Shown one piece after another: positions 1,935 through 58,529 of a stretch of DNA of 59,569 bases (positions are counted from its first letter, which is position 1; the number at the start of each line of letters is the position of its first letter). The stretch covers positions 1 to 59,569 of the forward strand of contig JAUYTU010000009.1 in the NCBI GenBank assembly GCA_030694975.1, written 5' to 3'. The stretch comes from Erysipelotrichaceae bacterium (GTDB taxonomy: Bacteria > Bacillota_I > Bacilli_A > Erysipelotrichales > Erysipelotrichaceae). A program made the position numbers and the translations under genes. A model generated the notes under the pieces. It ran no database searches, was not told where the DNA came from, and saw only the letters and a program-made list of their open reading frames with translations.

Positions 1935-4013
1935 TTAGTTATCTCTGACATTCTTCTTGGCAACCTTCTCACTGATGCTCTTAGGAACATCCATATAGTG
2001 AGCGAATTGCATCGAGTAACTGCCACGACCCTGCGTAAATGAACGCAGATCCGTTGCATAACCAAACATTTCAGAAAGCGGAATGAATGCTGTAACAGCA
2101 ACCGCATTGCCTCTTTCTTCCTGATCTTTAATCTGGCCGCGACGTGAAGAAATATCTCCCATAACGCTACCCAGATACTCTGCCGGAGCTGTAACTTCGA
2201 CATTCATAATCGGTTCTAACAGAACCGGATTACACTTTTTCGCAGCTTCTTTCAAAGCCATCGAACCAGCAACCTTAAACGCCATTTCCGAAGAGTCGAC
2301 TTCATGGTACGAACCATCATAGAGGGTCGCCTTAATGTCGATAATCGGATAACCGGCAATCAAACCGTTATTTAATGAGGCTTGAATGCCTTCCATCGTC
2401 GGCTTGATGTATTCCTTCGGAATCGTACCGCCAATGGTCGCATCTACGAATGTAAAGCCTTTTCCGGTTTCGTTTGGCTCAAATTTGACCTTAACGTGAC
2501 CGTATTGACCGCGACCACCGGACTGACGCACAAACTTACCTTCGCAATCACCCAACTGACGGATGGTTTCGCGGTAGGCAACTTGCGGAGCACCGATATT
2601 CGCTTCAACTTTAAATTCGCGTTTCATCCGATCAACCAAGATATCCAAATGCAACTCACCCATACCAGCAATGATTGTTTGCCCTGTTTCTGGGTCAGTA
2701 AACGCTCTAAACGTCGGATCTTCTTCAGCTAATTTGCTTAAAGCCAGACCCATTTTGTCTTGATCGCCCTTCGACTTCGGTTCAATGGCAACATTGATAA
2801 CCGGTTCCGGGAATTGCATAGATTCTAAGATGATCGGGAATTTTTCATCACACAGCGTATCGCCGGTGGTGGTGTCTTTCAAACCGACAGCCGCCGCGAT
2901 ATCTCCGGAATAAACTTCCGTGATTTCTTGACGGTGATTGGCATGCATTTGCATCAAACGGCCGAAACGCTCACGTTTATCTTTGGTAGCGTTCAACACG
3001 TAGGATCCTGAAGTTGCCTTACCTGAATATACTCTGAAGTAACTCAAGCGACCGACAAACGGGTCCGTCATGATTTTAAACGCTAACGCCGCAAAGGGCT
3101 CTTCGTCGTTGGAAGGACGCTCAACAACTTCACCATTAGGAAGTATACCTGTAATATGGTCTACATCCAACGGGGAAGGCAGATAGTCGACAACCGCATC
3201 CAACATCGCGGTAACACCTTTATTCTTATACGCCGCTCCGCAGAGGACCGGGAAGAACTCCCCAGTAAGTACTGCTTTACGGATGGCTGCCTTGATTTGT
3301 TCAACGGTTGGTATTTCACCTTCCAGAACTGCCATCATCATATTTTCATCATAATCTGCTAACATTTCGATTAGTTTATCTCTATATTGTTGAGCGGAAT
3401 CCAAATACTCCGCCGGGATTTCTTGAATCAAATCCACTTTCTTCGAAACATCTTGGAAAATACGAGCATTCATTTCAACAAGATCAATGATCCCGTCGAA
3501 ATAGTTTTCTACGCCGATCGGTAATTGAATCGGTGTAGCTTTTGCTCCTAAACGAGTAAGCAACGAGCGGGCAGACATGTAGAAATCAGCACCGGTCGCA
3601 TCTAATTTATTAACAAATACAATGCGCGGAACGTTGTATTTGGTCGCCTGACGCCAAACTGTCTCTGTTTGTGGTTCAACGCCTGACTTCGCATCCAATA
3701 CCGCAACGGCACCATCGAGTACACGAAGTGATCGCTCAACTTCTACGGTAAAGTCTACGTGGCCCGGGGTGTCAATGATGTTGATACGGTGATCATGCCA
3801 TTGGGCTGTGGTTGCGGCAGAAGTAATGGTAATACCACGTTCCTGTTCTTGCGCCATCCAGTCCATCGTAGCGGCACCGTCATGCACTTCACCAATCTTA
3901 TGTGTACGGCCTGTATAAAACAGGATCCGTTCGGTCGTCGTTGTTTTACCAGCGTCAATATGAGCCATAATACCGATATTGCGCGTCTTTGCTAGTGAAA
4001 ACTCACGTGCCAT
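1935..4013 (-). CDS. fusA: Translation elongation factor G
   Basis: EF-G is the GTPase that drives translocation of tRNA and mRNA on the ribosome. At 692 residues it has the normal length, with G1 AHIDAGKT (17-24), G3 DTPGH (81-85) and G4 NKLD (135-138). Domains II-V follow, including the domain IV stretch with [12 protein letters not shown]. The start is ATG with AAAGGAGA upstream. It sits 33 bases downstream of rpsG in the str operon. A single copy is seen in the window. Confidence 0.99.
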
Positions 4014-40164: not shown

Positions 40165-42492
40165 TTATGACTTTTCGGTTTTTTTTCGTTCAAATAAATA
40201 CAAGCGTGCCGATTGATCGAACATGATTCGCGATTCCTCATGCAATCCGGCCACAAATGGTTGTTTTAATGCCCACCCAGCCAAGTTTAAGCAATCGCCA
40301 TACGCATTCAGATTCTCGTGTTCACTTTTCACTTTCATGAAAATATCAACTGTCTTATGTAATAGAGAATTTGGTTTGATATGAATCGGGGAGACATAGT
40401 TGATTAAATCCCCAAATTCTATGATGCTCATATCAAAGGGAACTGACTTGACGGAGTAATATCCATCTTCGTCCAGTCCTCGGGTAATAAATCGCTCACT
40501 TTTAACATTGACCGGATTTCGTGATTGAAAGTACATGGCTACAGCTGCTTGTTTCTGTTGGTCGACACACATCCAGCGAACCTGGTTTTTATCGCACATG
40601 ATTCGATAAAACGTACCATACTGAAGCGTATTTCGATAAGCTTTATACAAGGTTATATGTGCAGCGATTTCTTTTTTCTGCTTATCATTACAATCGTTCA
40701 AATTGATCTCACATCCAAATACACCGAAACTGGCAACAGCCAGACGAGAGTTCAATGGTGATATCCGTCGGGTCTGATGATTCGGTACAGCACTGATGTG
40801 TGCGGATATTGAGGATAGCGGATAGCCGTAACTGGTTCCGGTCTGAATGACCGTGCGATCGAGGGCATCGGTATTATCGCTTGTCCAGATTTGCGGAGTG
40901 TAACATAACATGCCCAGATCAAAGCGGTTTCCGCCGGATGCACAACTCTCAAACAGTACATGTGGAAATCGCAGGATAAGCTGTTCTAAAACGCGGTATG
41001 TTCCCAATATAAATGAGTGTGTGAATTTTCCTTGGTGATCAAGGATCGATCCATAATGATCGGAGAAGATTCGGTTGTAATCCCACTTTACAAAGCTCAC
41101 TTCGGCTTCGGTGAAGATTTGAGTTAATCGCTCGATCAGATAATCTTGTACTTGGGGATTGCTCATGTCGATCAGTCGTTGATTTCGACTGAGTGATGCC
41201 TCGCAATCAACTCTGCCAACGGCCCAATCCGGATGCGCACGATATAAGTCACTGTCTTCGTTAATCATTTCCGGTTCTACCCATAAGCCAAAACTCATGT
41301 TCATGGCTTGGATTTGTTTGCTCAACCAATTCAAACCGTGGGGAAGTTTCTTGGTATCGGTATACCAGTCGCCCAGTGCACGCAGGTCGTCTTTACGGTT
41401 TTTAAACCAGCCGTCATCCAACACAAAGCATTCTACCCCGATTTTTGAGGCCTCTTTTGCCAAATTCAGTATCTTACTTTCAGAAAAATTAAAATAGGTT
41501 GCTTCCCAATTGTTCAGTACGACAGGGCGTTCTTTGTTTTTCCACTCCCCGTGAATGATGTTTTGATTGATGAAACTGTGAAACTGTTGGCTCAGTTGAT
41601 TGAGTCCAAAAAAGCTAAATGAGAAAACAGCTTCGGGAGATTGGAAAGTTTCATCGGGTTTTAATGGCCAGTGAAAGTGAGTCGGATGGATGCCACTCAG
41701 TATTCTCAATCGATCATAAGCGCTGACTTCGATGTTACTTTGATGATTTCCGGAATATATAAGATTAAATCCTAAACACTCTCCCAGATCCTCATCTGTA
41801 TGTGCTTTCTTTAATATAAAGAACGGATTTTGACGATTACTTGAACTACCGGCTAAGCTCTCTACAACGCTTCGCCCATACCCGATATCCCGTGTATGAG
41901 GGGTGCGTTCCCTTCCCCAATGTCCATCGAATGTCATGATTTGCCAGTCGATGTCATCACGGTCCAATTGCATGGAGAATAGTGATTCAATGGTGATGAT
42001 CATTTCTGTTTGATTAATCAGTTTACTGCTACGTACAATCACATCCGACTCATAAAATGAGCTGTACTTTAATTGAAGATATATTTCATGATTCTTTTCT
42101 TTTAAGGTAATGATTATCGTTTCAATTTCATCATCAGATCCATAACTGCTCGGAAGTCCTTTTAAAGCTTCTTTTCCTCTTTTTCTTTCGGCTTTATGAA
42201 ATACAAAATCCGACACATACGATGTGTCGGGGAAGATAATCTCTACTAAAGACTGGCGGATGTCTCCTTTTCCGGGGGAGGAGTGTTCGAGCATGCGGTG
42301 CTCTAAAGAGATATGGGGAACTTTGCGATCGTAGACAACGCAGTTCCCACTAGGGAATACCGCTTTTTCACTTAATACCGAGGGATCTTCCAACCGTATC
42401 TTCTTTCCATAGTAAAGATGTTCGAGTTGGCCGGTGGACAACACCGTGAATGCGTAGCTGGTATTTTTTGTTTGTAAGTGGAACAGTTCCAT
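40165..42492 (-). CDS. Alpha-galactosidase (GH36)
   Basis: Hydrolyses terminal alpha-1,6-galactose from raffinose-family sugars; 775 residues, start ATG 42492 with GGAGGTAAT. The GH36 core shows the nucleophile D471 in VKWDYNR and acid/base D539 in WTSDNTDA, as well as ESCASGGNRFD. There is no signal peptide, so it is a cytoplasmic enzyme that would need an oligosaccharide importer not seen here. It is divergent from pepT with overlapping promoters. Confidence 0.93.
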   Translation of the reverse strand: MELFHLQTKNTSYAFTVLSTGQLEHLYYGKKIRLEDPSVLSEKAVFPSGNCVVYDRKVPHISLEHRMLEHSSPGKGDIRQSLVEIIFPDTSYVSDFVFHKAERKRGKEALKGLPSSYGSDDEIETIIITLKEKNHEIYLQLKYSSFYESDVIVRSSKLINQTEMIITIESLFSMQLDRDDIDWQIMTFDGHWGRERTPHTRDIGYGRSVVESLAGSSSNRQNPFFILKKAHTDEDLGECLGFNLIYSGNHQSNIEVSAYDRLRILSGIHPTHFHWPLKPDETFQSPEAVFSFSFFGLNQLSQQFHSFINQNIIHGEWKNKERPVVLNNWEATYFNFSESKILNLAKEASKIGVECFVLDDGWFKNRKDDLRALGDWYTDTKKLPHGLNWLSKQIQAMNMSFGLWVEPEMINEDSDLYRAHPDWAVGRVDCEASLSRNQRLIDMSNPQVQDYLIERLTQIFTEAEVSFVKWDYNRIFSDHYGSILDHQGKFTHSFILGTYRVLEQLILRFPHVLFESCASGGNRFDLGMLCYTPQIWTSDNTDALDRTVIQTGTSYGYPLSSISAHISAVPNHQTRRISPLNSRLAVASFGVFGCEINLNDCNDKQKKEIAAHITLYKAYRNTLQYGTFYRIMCDKNQVRWMCVDQQKQAAVAMYFQSRNPVNVKSERFITRGLDEDGYYSVKSVPFDMSIIEFGDLINYVSPIHIKPNSLLHKTVDIFMKVKSEHENLNAYGDCLNLAGWALKQPFVAGLHEESRIMFDQSARLYLFERKKTEKS

Positions 42493-53384: not shown

Positions 53385-53407
53385 ATAAAAACGGAGACTA
53401 ACTCCGT
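53385..53407 (-). terminator. Terminator of the CapA-like gene
   Basis: The stem acggag/ctccgt (53391-53407) overlaps the stop codon, then five T on the minus strand. Confidence 0.85.
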
Positions 53408-54522
53408 TACTCATCAAAGAATCCGCCCAAGGTGATTTTATCCGGTTGCAAGCGTGTAATGATTTTTGCATACGCCTGATATTTAGCATCTCGGTCGGGC
53501 ATGATGCTCAATGGAACCTGACTCATCGGATAAAGAGTGAACTCTTTAAAGTCAGGTGTGTAATAATTATAGAGCAAATCTGCTTTAACATTTTCCAATC
53601 GATAGTAAGTCTTTTCTGATGTTACAATTTTTACCATATCAACACTGGCAATCAATTCGACTAGACGAGGCTCACCAATCTGAGACGAAACGAAGTTCCC
53701 TAGTGAGTAAATAACCAATGTATCTTCAATAAAATCAATCGGTTGAATAACATGCGGATGATGCCCGATGATTATGTCCGCTCCTTGCTCAGCAATGAAC
53801 GTTGCCATTTGTACATGTATAGGGTGTGGAATATGATTGTATTCTTGGACAAAATGTAAGGAAACAATTATGAAATCTACTTCATCACGATACCTAGCCA
53901 TATCCTTGCGTACCAGATTTTCATCATAAATATCAATAAGATACTTTTGATCGTCAGGAATTGATCTCGTATTGGATTCGTAAGTATAAGCTAAAAAGGC
54001 AAAAGTAATCCCATTTATCTCATGTATACGAAACTGATCACGTTCTTCTTGGCTTCCCCAGCTACCGGCGGTAATAACGGGCTGTTCTTTCCAAAAGTCA
54101 TAGGAGTTCAATGCTCCTCTGACCCCTTTGTCCATGGTGTGGTTGTTCGCAAGACTTACCATATTAAATCCCATTTCAATCATTTGTTCCCCAAAATCAG
54201 CAGGTGAATTGAAATTTGGATATCCACTGTATCCTAATTCTTTTCCGCCAAATACCGTTTCTTGGTTATAGAAAGCTAAATCATAGTTCTTAACGATCGG
54301 AGCAATATAGCGTAAAGATGGTCGAAAATCATAGGTGCCATCTTCATTTTCCCCATGACTAAAGTAGTTTTGATGTAAAATCGCATCTCCCACCATCATC
54401 AGCGAAGCCCGATACTCCAATGAAATCGGGGACTGAAAGGGAAACTCATAAGGATATTCGATTGCCGGTTCGACAGTGCAAGCCGTTAACAAGATTAGTA
54501 GTAGTATAATAGATTTCCTCAT
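53407..54522 (-). CDS. CapA family lipoprotein (metallophosphatase-like)
   Basis: A 371-residue protein with a lipoprotein signal: MRKSIILLLILLTAC, lipobox LTAC, cysteine 15, matched by the Lgt encoded here. CapA/PgsA metallophosphatase motifs: MVGDAILHQ (about 42-50), YNQETVFGG, SLANNHTMDKG, and GHHPHVIQP. In Bacillus, CapA helps make or anchor poly-gamma-glutamate; no capB/C genes are near, so the exact role is unknown. GGGGGG precedes the ATG. Follows the M23 terminator. Confidence 0.9.
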   Translation of the reverse strand: MRKSIILLLILLTACTVEPAIEYPYEFPFQSPISLEYRASLMMVGDAILHQNYFSHGENEDGTYDFRPSLRYIAPIVKNYDLAFYNQETVFGGKELGYSGYPNFNSPADFGEQMIEMGFNMVSLANNHTMDKGVRGALNSYDFWKEQPVITAGSWGSQEERDQFRIHEINGITFAFLAYTYESNTRSIPDDQKYLIDIYDENLVRKDMARYRDEVDFIIVSLHFVQEYNHIPHPIHVQMATFIAEQGADIIIGHHPHVIQPIDFIEDTLVIYSLGNFVSSQIGEPRLVELIASVDMVKIVTSEKTYYRLENVKADLLYNYYTPDFKEFTLYPMSQVPLSIMPDRDAKYQAYAKIITRLQPDKITLGGFFDE

Positions 54523-54537
54523 ACAACCCCCTAATAG

Positions 54538-54557
54538 AAAAGCGGTTTCCCGCTTTT
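54538..54557 (-). terminator. Terminator of the ftsE-ftsX-M23 operon
   Basis: A stem aaagcgg/ccgcttt with a tttc loop; T-run on both strands. Confidence 0.8.
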
Positions 54558-55965
54558 AATAACCTCTACCCGTTACAACATTAAACACGTTTAACGGATT
54601 TAGTCGGCATGGTGGTTTATTACCATTGGCTTCACACCGACGATTGTATCCTGTTGTTCCCCAACCAGCCCCGAATGACAAATCACCATTCCAGCGGCTC
54701 GCATAGTAATTCATTGAGTTATTACCTACATAAACAACTTCAATATGTAGATGTGGTCCGGTTGAGTTCCCTGAAGAACCTATATTCCCAATTCTATCTC
54801 CCTGATTGACAATTGTACCCATCGGACGTGTTGAACCTTCTTTCATGTGGAAATTAATGATCCAATACGTTTTATTGTTAATTGATGTCAATAAATAGGT
54901 TTGATTTCCACCCATGGCAACGCCAGGACGACCACATCTGTTGCCTAAATAACCATAGGTTGCGCAACCGTCTGCACTATACATAATGATGCCATTCCCT
55001 ACGGCTCTGATTGGTGTCCCGACAGGTGCAGCAAGGTCTATTCCAATATGTCGCCCACCACCAAAGGAAGCTGGATAATTCCATGCTCCGGCGGAAACAC
55101 GATATCCTGACGCAACCGGACGCAAGAATCCATTGGAAGTCACAACCGCTTTAAGCGCTGCTGAAACTCTTTTAAGTTTATCTTGTACGGCTTTCAAATC
55201 AGAAATTAATTCCGCTTGCATTGCCAACAGGTCTGCTTCTTGTTTTTTATACTCAGAAATGATTTTCTCAACTTCAAGTTTCATTTGAGCCATCGTTGTC
55301 TGATTGGATTCGAGATTGACACGGTTTTCAACCAAAACGACTTGCTGCCGCACCAACTCTTCTCTATCAATTTTTATTAGTTCAATTTCAGTTTGAAGTG
55401 CTTTGATTTGCTCTTTATCATAAGTCGTAGTATCTTGAATGCCCTCAACTCTACGAATCAAATCAGAAAAACTTGTAGCATTCATGATGAACTCGATATA
55501 GCCATTCACGGATAGAAATCCCTGCATGACAACCAAGCGTTCGCGAATACCATTATCGATTTTCTTGGCATTGTCTTCACGGATAACAATTTCTTTTTCC
55601 AATGTTTTAATATTGGATTCAAGATAGTAAATTGAATCTGTTAAAATACGGATTTGACGATCTAATTCAACAATCGTCGCCTCATATTCACTTACCTTTT
55701 GAGCCAAGGCTACAATATTTTTCTTCACATCTTTCAAATCATTTTGCAGAGCAGCTAAGTCTGCTTGCGCATTTTTAGCCTTTTGATTGATGTAAGTTTG
55801 AAATTGCTGACACACTGTATAATTTTCTCTTGATATCGTCCCAAAACAGAGTTTCTCATAATAACTCTCGTTTTTACTAAAGTCTATGGCCGATGCAGTT
55901 ATTGTTGTCGCGAAGATCAACAAAACTATCGGAACTATTAATAATGATTTAAAGTATTTCTTCAT
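54556..55965 (-). CDS. Coiled-coil M23 peptidoglycan hydrolase of the FtsEX complex
   Basis: A 469-residue exported protein, start ATG 55965 (a GTG three codons upstream lies in the ribosome site). Layout: signal peptide (about 1-27, cleaved near TASA), long coiled coil (about 57-270), and a C-terminal M23 (LytM) domain. Zinc ligands appear intact: H306/D310 in GRHIGIDL, H373 in NFHMK, and the HLH motif (405-407). The position directly after ftsX, overlapping by four bases (ATGA), identifies it as the hydrolase controlled by FtsEX, like PcsB/CwlO but with a different catalytic domain. Confidence 0.93.
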   Translation of the reverse strand: MKKYFKSLLIVPIVLLIFATTITASAIDFSKNESYYEKLCFGTISRENYTVCQQFQTYINQKAKNAQADLAALQNDLKDVKKNIVALAQKVSEYEATIVELDRQIRILTDSIYYLESNIKTLEKEIVIREDNAKKIDNGIRERLVVMQGFLSVNGYIEFIMNATSFSDLIRRVEGIQDTTTYDKEQIKALQTEIELIKIDREELVRQQVVLVENRVNLESNQTTMAQMKLEVEKIISEYKKQEADLLAMQAELISDLKAVQDKLKRVSAALKAVVTSNGFLRPVASGYRVSAGAWNYPASFGGGRHIGIDLAAPVGTPIRAVGNGIIMYSADGCATYGYLGNRCGRPGVAMGGNQTYLLTSINNKTYWIINFHMKEGSTRPMGTIVNQGDRIGNIGSSGNSTGPHLHIEVVYVGNNSMNYYASRWNGDLSFGAGWGTTGYNRRCEANGNKPPCRLNPLNVFNVVTGRGY

Positions 55966-56858
55966 CGTTGCCACCTCAAATATCGGGTTACCGATACAAA
56001 GCTGCCAATCAGCCCTACAAATACCGCAATACCAACCAAGATTCCGGCTGTATAGTAAACTAGCGGAAAGGGTGATTGAAGCACAAACATTTGAGCCAAG
56101 AAGACTCCACCTAAGGCTTCGTATAAATATATATATCCCATCGTTGCCACCAATATTGGAAAAATGGATCCCAATATTCCAATAAGGATTCCCTCAATAA
56201 CATAAGGCATCCGGATAAAACCGTTTTTTGCACCTACTGTCCGCATGATCGATATTTCATTAATCCTTGAACATATTGACGCATTAATTGTATTAGAAAT
56301 AAGGAAAACGGCAACAATACTTAATCCTATAACTAAAATATAACCAACTGATCGAATATAATCAAGCATATTCATTAATTGTACCGTCCCGGTACCACCA
56401 TAAGATACTTTTTCAACACCTGCAATTAATCGGATAGATTCAGCAACTGCTTCGATATCCGAACCTTCATTTGTCTTTACTAAGTACGCAGCACGTAACG
56501 GATTTCCTACTCCACGGTATGATTCAAAGATTTTTCCATCCTCACCATACGTGGCAACCAGTTTATCCAATTCTTCATCTTTTGAAGAATATTCAACATC
56601 CAAGACTCCGACGATTTCCGAAATCTGTGTATAAATGATTCCCAATGGCTCTTCTTTATTGAATTCCTCATTGACTTTCACGTGAATCTGAACACTTTCT
56701 TCAACAGAATACGTAATCTGTTCAATGTTGATGCTTAAGATAATAAATATTCCTACAAACAATAGTGCATAAGCGACTGCAGATGCACTGGAAACCGTCA
56801 TGGCACCATGACGTACCAAGCCTAGGAAGGCTTCTTTAAAGTGTCGGAACAGGTTCAT
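55962..56858 (-). CDS. ftsX: FtsX, division/wall-remodelling permease
   Basis: A 298-residue membrane protein with four helices (about 20-43, 168-190, 217-245, 267-290) and the extracellular loop (about 45-165) that contacts the hydrolase. Together with FtsE it transmits ATP-driven shape changes to the wall hydrolase across the membrane. It overlaps ftsE by 23 bases and the M23 gene by four. Confidence 0.95.
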   Translation of the reverse strand: MNLFRHFKEAFLGLVRHGAMTVSSASAVAYALLFVGIFIILSINIEQITYSVEESVQIHVKVNEEFNKEEPLGIIYTQISEIVGVLDVEYSSKDEELDKLVATYGEDGKIFESYRGVGNPLRAAYLVKTNEGSDIEAVAESIRLIAGVEKVSYGGTGTVQLMNMLDYIRSVGYILVIGLSIVAVFLISNTINASICSRINEISIMRTVGAKNGFIRMPYVIEGILIGILGSIFPILVATMGYIYLYEALGGVFLAQMFVLQSPFPLVYYTAGILVGIAVFVGLIGSFVSVTRYLRWQR

Positions 56859-57540
56859 TTTTTATGTATCCTCCTTCCGCCAAATCAGCTACAATGTGAC
56901 CATCATATAGTAAGACAGTGCGTTTTTTAAACTGATTGACCAACGTAATATCATGTGTGACCATCAAGATTGTCGTACCTTCTTCACGATTAATCTTTTC
57001 AAGAAGTAACATGATATCCGTAGACATATCCGGATCTAGATTACCGGTGGGTTCATCACAAATCAACAGTTTCGGTTGATTGGCAATCGCCCTGGCAATC
57101 GCGGTGCGCTGTAATTGTCCGCCTGACAACTGCTCCGGGAAACTTTTCATTTTGTCAGATAAACCGACCAAATGAAGGATTTCACGAACTCGTTGTCGTG
57201 CTTTAAGCTTTGGTGTTCCAATTGCTTCCAAAGCAAAGTATACATTCTCAAATACTGTTTTTCTTTCAAGCAACTTATAATCTTGAAAGACAACGCCTAC
57301 ATTTCTTCGAAACATCGGAATCTTAGAACGTCTAAGTTTTCCGATATTGATTCCGACAACTTCCACAAGACCCCCGGAAGGAATCTCTTCACCATCCAAT
57401 AATTTGATGAGTGTCGATTTCCCCGAACCCGTAGGTCCTATGATATACACGAACTCTCCCTGTTCTATGGTCATATTTATATTGTGAAGAGCGTTGACTC
57501 CGTTTTTATAAGTTTTACTAACATTTCTCATTAATACCAT
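56836..57540 (-). CDS. ftsE: FtsE, ABC ATPase of FtsEX
   Basis: The cytoplasmic ATPase subunit, 234 residues: Walker A GPTGSGKST (35-43), Q-loop VVFQDYKLLE, ABC signature LSGGQLQR, Walker B LLICDEPTGNLD, and H-loop VTHD. GGGAGG precedes the ATG. It is the first gene of ftsE-ftsX-M23, with an extended -10 promoter (TGGTAGAAT, 57572-57564) and palindromes upstream. Confidence 0.97.
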   Translation of the reverse strand: MVLMRNVSKTYKNGVNALHNINMTIEQGEFVYIIGPTGSGKSTLIKLLDGEEIPSGGLVEVVGINIGKLRRSKIPMFRRNVGVVFQDYKLLERKTVFENVYFALEAIGTPKLKARQRVREILHLVGLSDKMKSFPEQLSGGQLQRTAIARAIANQPKLLICDEPTGNLDPDMSTDIMLLLEKINREEGTTILMVTHDITLVNQFKKRTVLLYDGHIVADLAEGGYIKNEPVPTL

Positions 57541-57563
57541 GAGTTACCTCCCTCGTACATTGT

Positions 57564-57659
57564 ATTCTACCACAACATGTGTGAATTGTTGATGAAAGTT
57601 ATTGTCAATTCGTGACAAGCATGTCAATACGTGACAAATAAGTAATGACAAAGTCGTCA
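57564..57659 (-). promoter_or_regulatory. Promoter and TGTCA-N5-TGACA palindrome array of ftsEX
   Basis: Two similar inverted repeats occur 19 bases apart: TTGTCA-attcg-TGACAA (57602-57618) and TGTCA-atacg-TGACA (57622-57636). A looser one, TGAC-6-GTCA (57646-57659), overlaps the YitT stop. They lie upstream of the extended -10 TGGTAGAAT (57572-57564). They look like regulator sites; the regulator is not identified. Confidence 0.6.
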
Positions 57660-58508
57660 CACTTTATAATCCAGCGTAAATCCATACCCCTTAACTTCTG
57701 TGGTTTCATTTGCTATAAAGAACGCCTGTTTGTCAACCGAATGAATGATTTGTGTCAACTCAGGATATTGATTCTTCATAATAACCGCCAAAATGATCGG
57801 ACGATCTTCCCCAGTATATCCACCCGTCGCATTAAGCAATGTAGTTCCTCTATCAAGTTTATCATGTATCAGTGGAATCAGTTCTTTATAATGCTCAGAA
57901 ATGATATACACAGCTTTAGCCTGTTGCCCACCAAATACTAAAATCTTATCTAAGGAAAAGGCACATGCCCAAACCGATATAAACCCGATCAAGACCGCTT
58001 CAAGCCCAAAGGCATATAAACCCAATAGTACTGTAAGAGCATCCACGATTAATACGAGTTTATGAATTTCAATGTGAGTGTATTTATGTATGACCAGTGG
58101 AGGAACATCCATTCCACCCGTCGAAGAGCCACTTCGAATAACCATACCAACACCTATACCTGCTAGTAATCCACCATACAAACTGGCTAAGATCGGATCC
58201 AACGCCTGCGTGTATTGCATCTTTATAGTAAATGTAAGCATAAACGGATATAGAAAGGAACTTATGACCGTGCTGAATGCAAATTGTCTGCCTAAAGCAA
58301 AAGCACCAACAATAAACAACCCAATAACCAATATGTTAATTACAATTCCTGGGGAAACATTGATCAGAGGTTGCAATGCAACTGCAATACCGGCTACCCC
58401 GCCCGATAATATATTGTATGGCAAAATAAACACCCCGACCGATAATGCCAAAATGTAATTTCCAACGACCAATAGCAACCCATTCTTAATCCATTTTTTC
58501 ATTACCAT
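57657..58508 (-). CDS. YitT family membrane protein
   Basis: A 283-residue protein: five or six membrane helices (about 5-200) followed by a cytoplasmic DUF2179 domain (about 205-283, PIILAVIMKNQYPELTQII). The YitT signature SGGVAGIAVAL near residue 35 and GSSTGGMD (about 125-132) are present. The family is widespread in Firmicutes; the transported substrate is not established. The start at ATG 58508 has AGAGG; a TTG five codons upstream is rejected. It is on the same strand as ftsE but independently promoted. Confidence 0.9.
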   Translation of the reverse strand: MVMKKWIKNGLLLVVGNYILALSVGVFILPYNILSGGVAGIAVALQPLINVSPGIVINILVIGLFIVGAFALGRQFAFSTVISSFLYPFMLTFTIKMQYTQALDPILASLYGGLLAGIGVGMVIRSGSSTGGMDVPPLVIHKYTHIEIHKLVLIVDALTVLLGLYAFGLEAVLIGFISVWACAFSLDKILVFGGQQAKAVYIISEHYKELIPLIHDKLDRGTTLLNATGGYTGEDRPIILAVIMKNQYPELTQIIHSVDKQAFFIANETTEVKGYGFTLDYKV

Positions 58509-58529
58509 ACGATACCTCTTCAATAATAC

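Follow-up and report, generated by a model that had tools for sequence, protein, structure and literature searches.

The DNA analysed here (the window, 59,569 nt of the Erysipelotrichaceae genome G000) carries an ftsE-ftsX pair followed by a PcsB-like M23 gene that continues on the same strand, and an array of short inverted repeats lies between ftsE and its upstream neighbour yitT. The features of this region are:

54556-55974, minus strand: PcsB-like hydrolase or hydrolase activator (CC_PcsB coiled coil plus Peptidase_M23)
55962-56858, minus strand: ftsX (NF038347, FtsX_Gpos, 307.4 bits, cut-off 225)
56836-57540, minus strand: ftsE (TIGR02673, 267.6 bits, cut-off 264.85)
57564-57569, minus strand: -10 hexamer TAGAAT with a TG extension (promoter scan and alignment)
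57582-57602, minus strand: invariant 21-bp stretch from the proximal palindrome to the promoter spacer (all 21 columns identical in four genomes)
57603-57617, no strand: promoter-proximal palindrome, TGTCACGAATTGACA in the ftsE-strand reading (motif scan and alignment)
57622-57636, no strand: distal palindrome, TGTCACGTATTGACA in the ftsE-strand reading (motif scan and alignment)
57646-57650, no strand: lone outer half-site, TGTCA read on the ftsE strand (alignment)
57657-58523, minus strand: yitT, upstream neighbour of the array, its stop codon abutting the array region (ORF list and family match)

The FtsEX-PcsB set stands side by side with all three members above cut-off (TIGR02673, NF038347 and PF24568), and the YitT and FtsEX gene calls of an earlier sequence-only reading were correct. 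On the same strand, the pcsB-like gene is followed by a PGA_cap (CapA-like) gene (window 53407-54522), which starts like a lipoprotein gene and may be a further member of the ftsE-ftsX-pcsB operon. The ftsE -10 hexamer reads TAAAAT in relatives, the start site is assumed to lie at about 57557, and a weak -35-like TCAACA (57592-57587) falls inside the invariant 21-bp stretch.

Exact TGTCA-N5-TGACA occurs twice in the window, at the two palindromes, which start 19 bp apart as the sequence-only reading had described; the rest of the window is free of exact matches. The proximal palindrome is centred at about -53 and ends 33 bp before the ftsE -10, and the distal one is centred at about -72 and ends 52 bp before it. 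The conserved part of what had been taken for a third, looser copy is a single half-site rather than a palindrome (TGACA on the plus strand), 14 bp from the next half-site and off the 19-bp register, and this distance is kept in all four array-bearing genomes (G000, G093, G150 and G007).

Frequent chance occurrence of the motif, which had been raised as an argument against the array, was not found, as G000 (2.19 Mb) has four exact sites in 2,188,236 bases and none of the reversed control pattern. Two of the four are those at ftsE, one lies within an ABC-ATPase ORF and one (L032:4118-4132; C42:53117) precedes a Fur/PerR-like gene by about 100 bp. The loosened motif, with at most two mismatches, shows no enrichment in the window (26 matches vs 32.1 expected), so that only the exact, clustered form is informative. 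At least three TGTCA/TGACA words per 60 bp occur at a single place in the window, 57603-57650, with five words; when the window was simulated 200 times with an order-1 Markov model, clusters of at least four words averaged 0.02 per run (maximum 1) and those of at least three 0.8. The cluster at ftsE is beyond chance.

Across the family, the pattern TGTCAYGNWTTGACA has 14 exact matches in the seven genomes of the genus vs six in the 188 other family genomes, where its reversed control gave zero and nine, respectively, and on these genome counts the motif is a peculiarity of the genus. The 14 genus matches fall at ftsE (six), rlmD (three), the gene of a coiled-coil exported protein (two), the Fur-family gene (one), within an ORF (one; G093 C35) and upstream of a lipoprotein gene (one; G062), and the six outside the genus fall within ORFs (five) and in an intergenic stretch (one; L115). 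With one mismatch allowed, 22 places were obtained in the seven genomes: of 14 that were read together, 13 lie within an ORF and one is intergenic (L124). The other eight are the distal site at ftsE in G007 and in G150, the exported-protein site of G117, four places already read among the sites of the genus, and window position 41932, whose G007 counterpart (L131) sits within an ORF. Relaxed matches were dropped as candidates for real sites, being mostly chance.

Conservation was read from a search with FtsX against 195 family genomes, of which 184 matched; the best 30 of these 184 loci were taken, 28 of them extending upstream of ftsE, by only 70 bp at L003 and by 114 bp at L018, and two being cut. 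The array is present in four of the five same-genus genomes with a readable stretch (G000, G093, G007 and G150, in the last on the other contig end, L064) and missing in the more distant G062 (FtsX identity 63%), so that its absence from close relatives, the other outcome thought to count against it, was not borne out. It is also missing in all 23 other-genus loci read, none of which has an exact palindrome in the up to 300 bp upstream of ftsE, and single two-mismatch matches occur in five of them (L018, L021, L023, L024 and L028). The two remaining genus genomes are uninformative for the ftsE array, since ftsE is cut by a contig end in G137 and no FtsX was found in G117, and searching the genus at the DNA level with the array region gave no further copy. 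The G150 assembly breaks inside the ftsE promoter, and its two ends, L064 and L003, share the stretch around the proximal palindrome.

Three of the four array-bearing genomes are draft MAGs and, because G093 and G150 are close relatives, the four amount to about three independent lines. Among them all 20 columns of the palindrome arms are invariant and five of the 10 columns of the cores, as well as 21 of 21 columns just downstream; the remaining spacer has seven invariant columns of 12, and the 5' UTR has 12 of 23. The half-sites are 9-10 bp, or one helical turn, apart. Conserved arms around variable cores at this spacing are compatible with the dimeric regulator that had been proposed, as is the finding, described below, of the same half-sites over the promoter of a Cro/CI-type candidate.

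The motif keeps a fixed distance to the promoter at other genes. Thirty-three bp separate the site end from the -10 at the four ftsE promoters and at three promoters of the coiled-coil exported protein, and a second position is used by the distal ftsE site (52 bp) and by the rlmD site of three genomes (51 bp). Searched for in the seven genomes, the promoter-phased pattern occurs at 12 places (four at ftsE, three at the coiled-coil protein and five singletons), and its reversed control at one. The coiled-coil protein has 472 aa, begins with a hydrophobic segment near its N-terminus and belongs to no Pfam family, and its gene adjoins rnf-like genes; it bears the motif exactly in G007 and G137 and with one mismatch in G117 (L057:3820-5238, L060:2215-3618 and L090), and was not found in the other four genus genomes. 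The rlmD site is present in G007, G093 and G150, where it has, as read by eye, a terminator-like hairpin on one side and the promoter on the other, and is degenerate in G000 (L093, C18), the only other genome readable there, which indicates turnover of targets inside the genus. The best -35 hexamers of the ftsE, coiled-coil-protein and rlmD promoters match at 3-4 of six positions. Sites kept at a constant distance ahead of promoters whose -35 is weak are what an activator requires, and the recurrence of the 33- and 51-bp spacings at an unrelated gene and at rlmD suggests an activator.

The lead to a protein that might bind these sites was an exact TGTCA-N5-TGACA in G062 that immediately precedes a gene for a Cro/CI-type HTH protein (L067). 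Its G000 counterpart is:

G000 C18:61452-63026 (L157): candidate regulator of about 525 aa, with a Cro/CI HTH and a degenerate PLD-like domain

Orthologs are present in six of the seven genus genomes, each at a distance of 4-6 kb from the gene that neighbours rlmD; none was found in G117 (69% complete). Phage genes were not seen beside it in the ORF list of G000 C18:60232-69482. The G000 protein is of Cro/CI type by Pfam (HTH_26, 25.8 bits, cut-off 22; HTH_3, 23.3 bits, cut-off 23), and a Cro/CI HTH match at E <= 0.1 was obtained for all six orthologs, the G062 protein alone scoring below cut-off (HTH_3 18.9, HTH_26 13.7).

All six genus orthologs have five to six TGTCA/TGACA words over their own promoter. 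The array of the G000 regulator, ATGTCATGACACAATTTGTCATTGACATTTTTTGTCAATTTCTGTCATAATG, covers a consensus -35 (TTGACA) and a -10-like CATAAT, as read by eye. A profile search of the 195 family genomes matched 27, several by the HTH alone, and 10 of the 16 full-length homologs with a readable start carry at least four words in the 150 bp upstream. These 10 belong to three genera: six to g1, the genus of G000, three to g36 (25-27% identity) and one, G078, to g35 (19%), and the g36 and g35 loci were selected by protein similarity alone, without use of the motif. The word spacing (0, +6, +16, +26) is identical in all nine g1 and g36 promoters, and G078 has the first three positions. The six other homologs have at most two words (two in G085, G133 and G092, one in G154 and G164, none in G171). 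A recognition helix of the form S-L-V/L-S-R-W-R/K-N-G is found in the g1 and g36 proteins and in none of the six array-poor homologs; that of G078 differs (SLISRLRTG) though the array is present.

Dense clusters of these words are otherwise rare. Among 405 mechanically defined ORFs with a 150-bp upstream stretch (taken from the window and a further 400 kb on other contigs, together about one fifth of G000), three have at least four words upstream: ftsE (five), the regulator (six) and a divergent region (four). In 666,606 bases of loci, a redundant set chosen partly by the motif, every cluster of at least four words is at ftsE or at the Cro/CI regulator, and the 400-kb G000 sample adds one further place. 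The eight clusters of that sample comprise the regulator's promoter and seven classed as within ORFs, one of which (L188:3398-3448) is a divergent intergenic region on close reading.

Outside the HTH the regulator has no Pfam family at E <= 0.1, its PADLOC and PHROG matches lie at the HTH end, and its sequence gave one match among solved structures (E 0.79). An AlphaFold2 model built with 17 homologs reached a mean pLDDT of 81.9, compared with 49.6 for an earlier six-sequence model. In the model, residues 148-310 resemble the archaeal TrmBL2 (5bpi_C; Z 13.9, rmsd 2.8 Å over 137 residues) and Nuc (1byr; Z 13.7, 3.1 Å over 142 residues), which assigns them a predicted PLD fold; the best Foldseek E-value (2.3e-6) was to a polyphosphate kinase, with a long alignment and a poor superposition. 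This second-domain fold is shared with TrmB-type regulators, and TrmB families are absent from the Pfam matches at E <= 0.1. The HKD motif H-x-K-x4-D/E is missing in 15 of the 17 aligned homologs, including all six genus proteins, and occurs once in L164 (at residue 365) and once in L166 (at residue 502). By analogy with TrmB, the PLD-like domain would be non-catalytic, and it probably senses a ligand.

Taking these results together, we put at roughly 0.6 the probability that the array is the operator of the candidate Cro/CI regulator and that this protein activates ftsE-ftsX-pcsB. Regulator dimers would occupy both palindromes, centred at about -53 and -72, and stimulate a promoter with an extended -10 and a poor -35. 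A Cro/CI HTH dimer fits half-sites spaced roughly one turn from each other, and this spacing makes dimeric binding a candidate reading; the 19-bp repeat would likewise allow cooperative binding at ftsE. Over its own promoter the regulator would cover the -35, the spacer and the -10 and thus repress itself, and the PLD-like domain may set its activity. The main gap in this reading is that the ftsE dyad, TGTCA-N5-TGACA, differs from the arrangements on the regulator's promoter (TGTCA-N1-TGACA, TGACA-N5-TGTCA and TGTCA-N5-TGTCA, often 10 bp apart), where the ftsE arrangement occurs only in G062. Also against it are G062, which has the regulator and lacks the ftsE array, G117, which has one motif site and in which the regulator was not found, the loss of the rlmD site in G000, and the six of 16 homologs with few words.

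The same difference between the two promoters would accord with another palindrome-binding regulator, for instance of the RpiR, Fur or TetR kind, as owner of the ftsE array, the Cro/CI half-site then being coincidental, and one exact G000 site does lie upstream of a Fur-family gene. That site is missing in all four other orthologs examined, and a Fur-family regulator was accordingly rejected as owner of the motif; the rarity of dense 5-mer clusters, with those of at least four words at ftsE, the Cro/CI regulator and one more place, also speaks against a different owner, which we consider rather unlikely. It is unlikely, too, that the Cro/CI regulator binds the array and represses ftsEX, whether by looping or by blocking a promoter activated by a response regulator. 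The protein very probably represses itself from an array spanning -35 to -10, whereas the sites at ftsE, rlmD and the exported-protein gene are wholly upstream of the -35, at a fixed distance, and accompanied by a poor -35.

That WalR, or a different response regulator of the OmpR type, acts here by way of a direct repeat that has diverged would accord with passages of PMC4996995 that place pcsB under direct positive control by WalR-type regulators (YycF/VicR) in streptococci, and the word TGTCAC/T is one position off the WalR half TGTWAH. The consensus TGTWAH-N5-TGTWAH, as quoted in PMC9210968, has no counterpart within one mismatch in 57540-57760, in agreement with the sequence-only reading that the motif is not that of WalR; the best match on either strand has two mismatches and overlaps a non-conserved stretch, and a direct repeat at an 11-bp period is missing. 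A WalR box was therefore ruled out, and this kind of control is very improbable here. The repeats stand just past the yitT stop and each could form a short stem, as would RNA stem-loops of a 3' end or terminator, or they might be meaningless. Folding of the array region is no better than that of shuffled sequences (z -0.33), no terminator-like site was found at the array, and the rlmD site lies between its terminator-like hairpin and the promoter; covariation has nothing to offer to the RNA reading because the arms never vary. An RNA element or terminator was rejected, and we regard either version as hardly credible.

The proposed Cro/CI activator is nearest in kind to Cro/CI-type (XRE, HTH_3) regulators with multi-site operators, e.g. 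lambda CI, here with a different second domain. Common to both are the Cro/CI HTH, half-sites in palindromes with a spacing of about one turn, an array over the regulator's own promoter and upstream sites elsewhere that are placed as for activation. In contrast to lambda CI, the candidate has a long C-terminal PLD-like part instead of a CI-type oligomerisation/protease domain, and its proposed targets are chromosomal and concern cell division. Archaeal TrmB/TrmBL2 proteins, the source of the best structural match, likewise join a PLD-fold domain to a DNA-binding domain; the candidate differs in being bacterial and in having a DNA-binding part of Cro/CI type by Pfam. The combination of a Cro/CI HTH with a PLD-like domain lacking HKD is unusual, and searches of the open-licence literature gave, among the matches listed, no such regulator.

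To our knowledge, WalRK is the main route by which FtsEX-dependent wall hydrolysis is known to be controlled transcriptionally in Firmicutes. For Erysipelotrichaceae, the present work offers a testable single-gene candidate for a non-WalRK route, in which the positions of both the operator and the regulator are given. Direct action of a DNA-binding regulator at FtsEX/PcsB promoters has parallels in WalR/VicR at pcsB and in the response regulator CpxR, for which passages of PMC10562621 describe direct positive control of ftsEX. These are two-component response regulators, however, and the WalR direct repeat is missing at ftsE here. Control after translation also occurs, as FtsEX acts on CwlO at that level according to PMC7299342. 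The arrangement looks like regulatory rewiring, in which an old operator word of autoregulation would have been put to new use at a division promoter. As a tentative extension, the protein could represent a new kind of one-component regulator, with a Cro/CI HTH and a dead PLD-fold sensor through which an envelope-derived ligand would switch on FtsEX-PcsB, the self-repressing array being older (three genera) and the ftsE array added in one genus in place of WalR-type control.

The divergent region at L188:3398-3448 (G000 C18) separates a TrpR-like (yerC-type) gene from an operon with GH3 and GAF-GGDEF-HD genes. It has four words in G000 and three in G093 (L065, upstream of the ATG at 3552, minus strand), at matching places, and is possibly a further target of the candidate regulator. 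Exact G062 sites (L069 and L070) lie upstream of a lipoprotein gene or near other genes, and G007 has an exact site at L063. The site TGTCATGCTTTGACA (L069:827-841, minus strand) stands just upstream of the TATAAT-like hexamer of the lipoprotein gene, a position that would suit repression.
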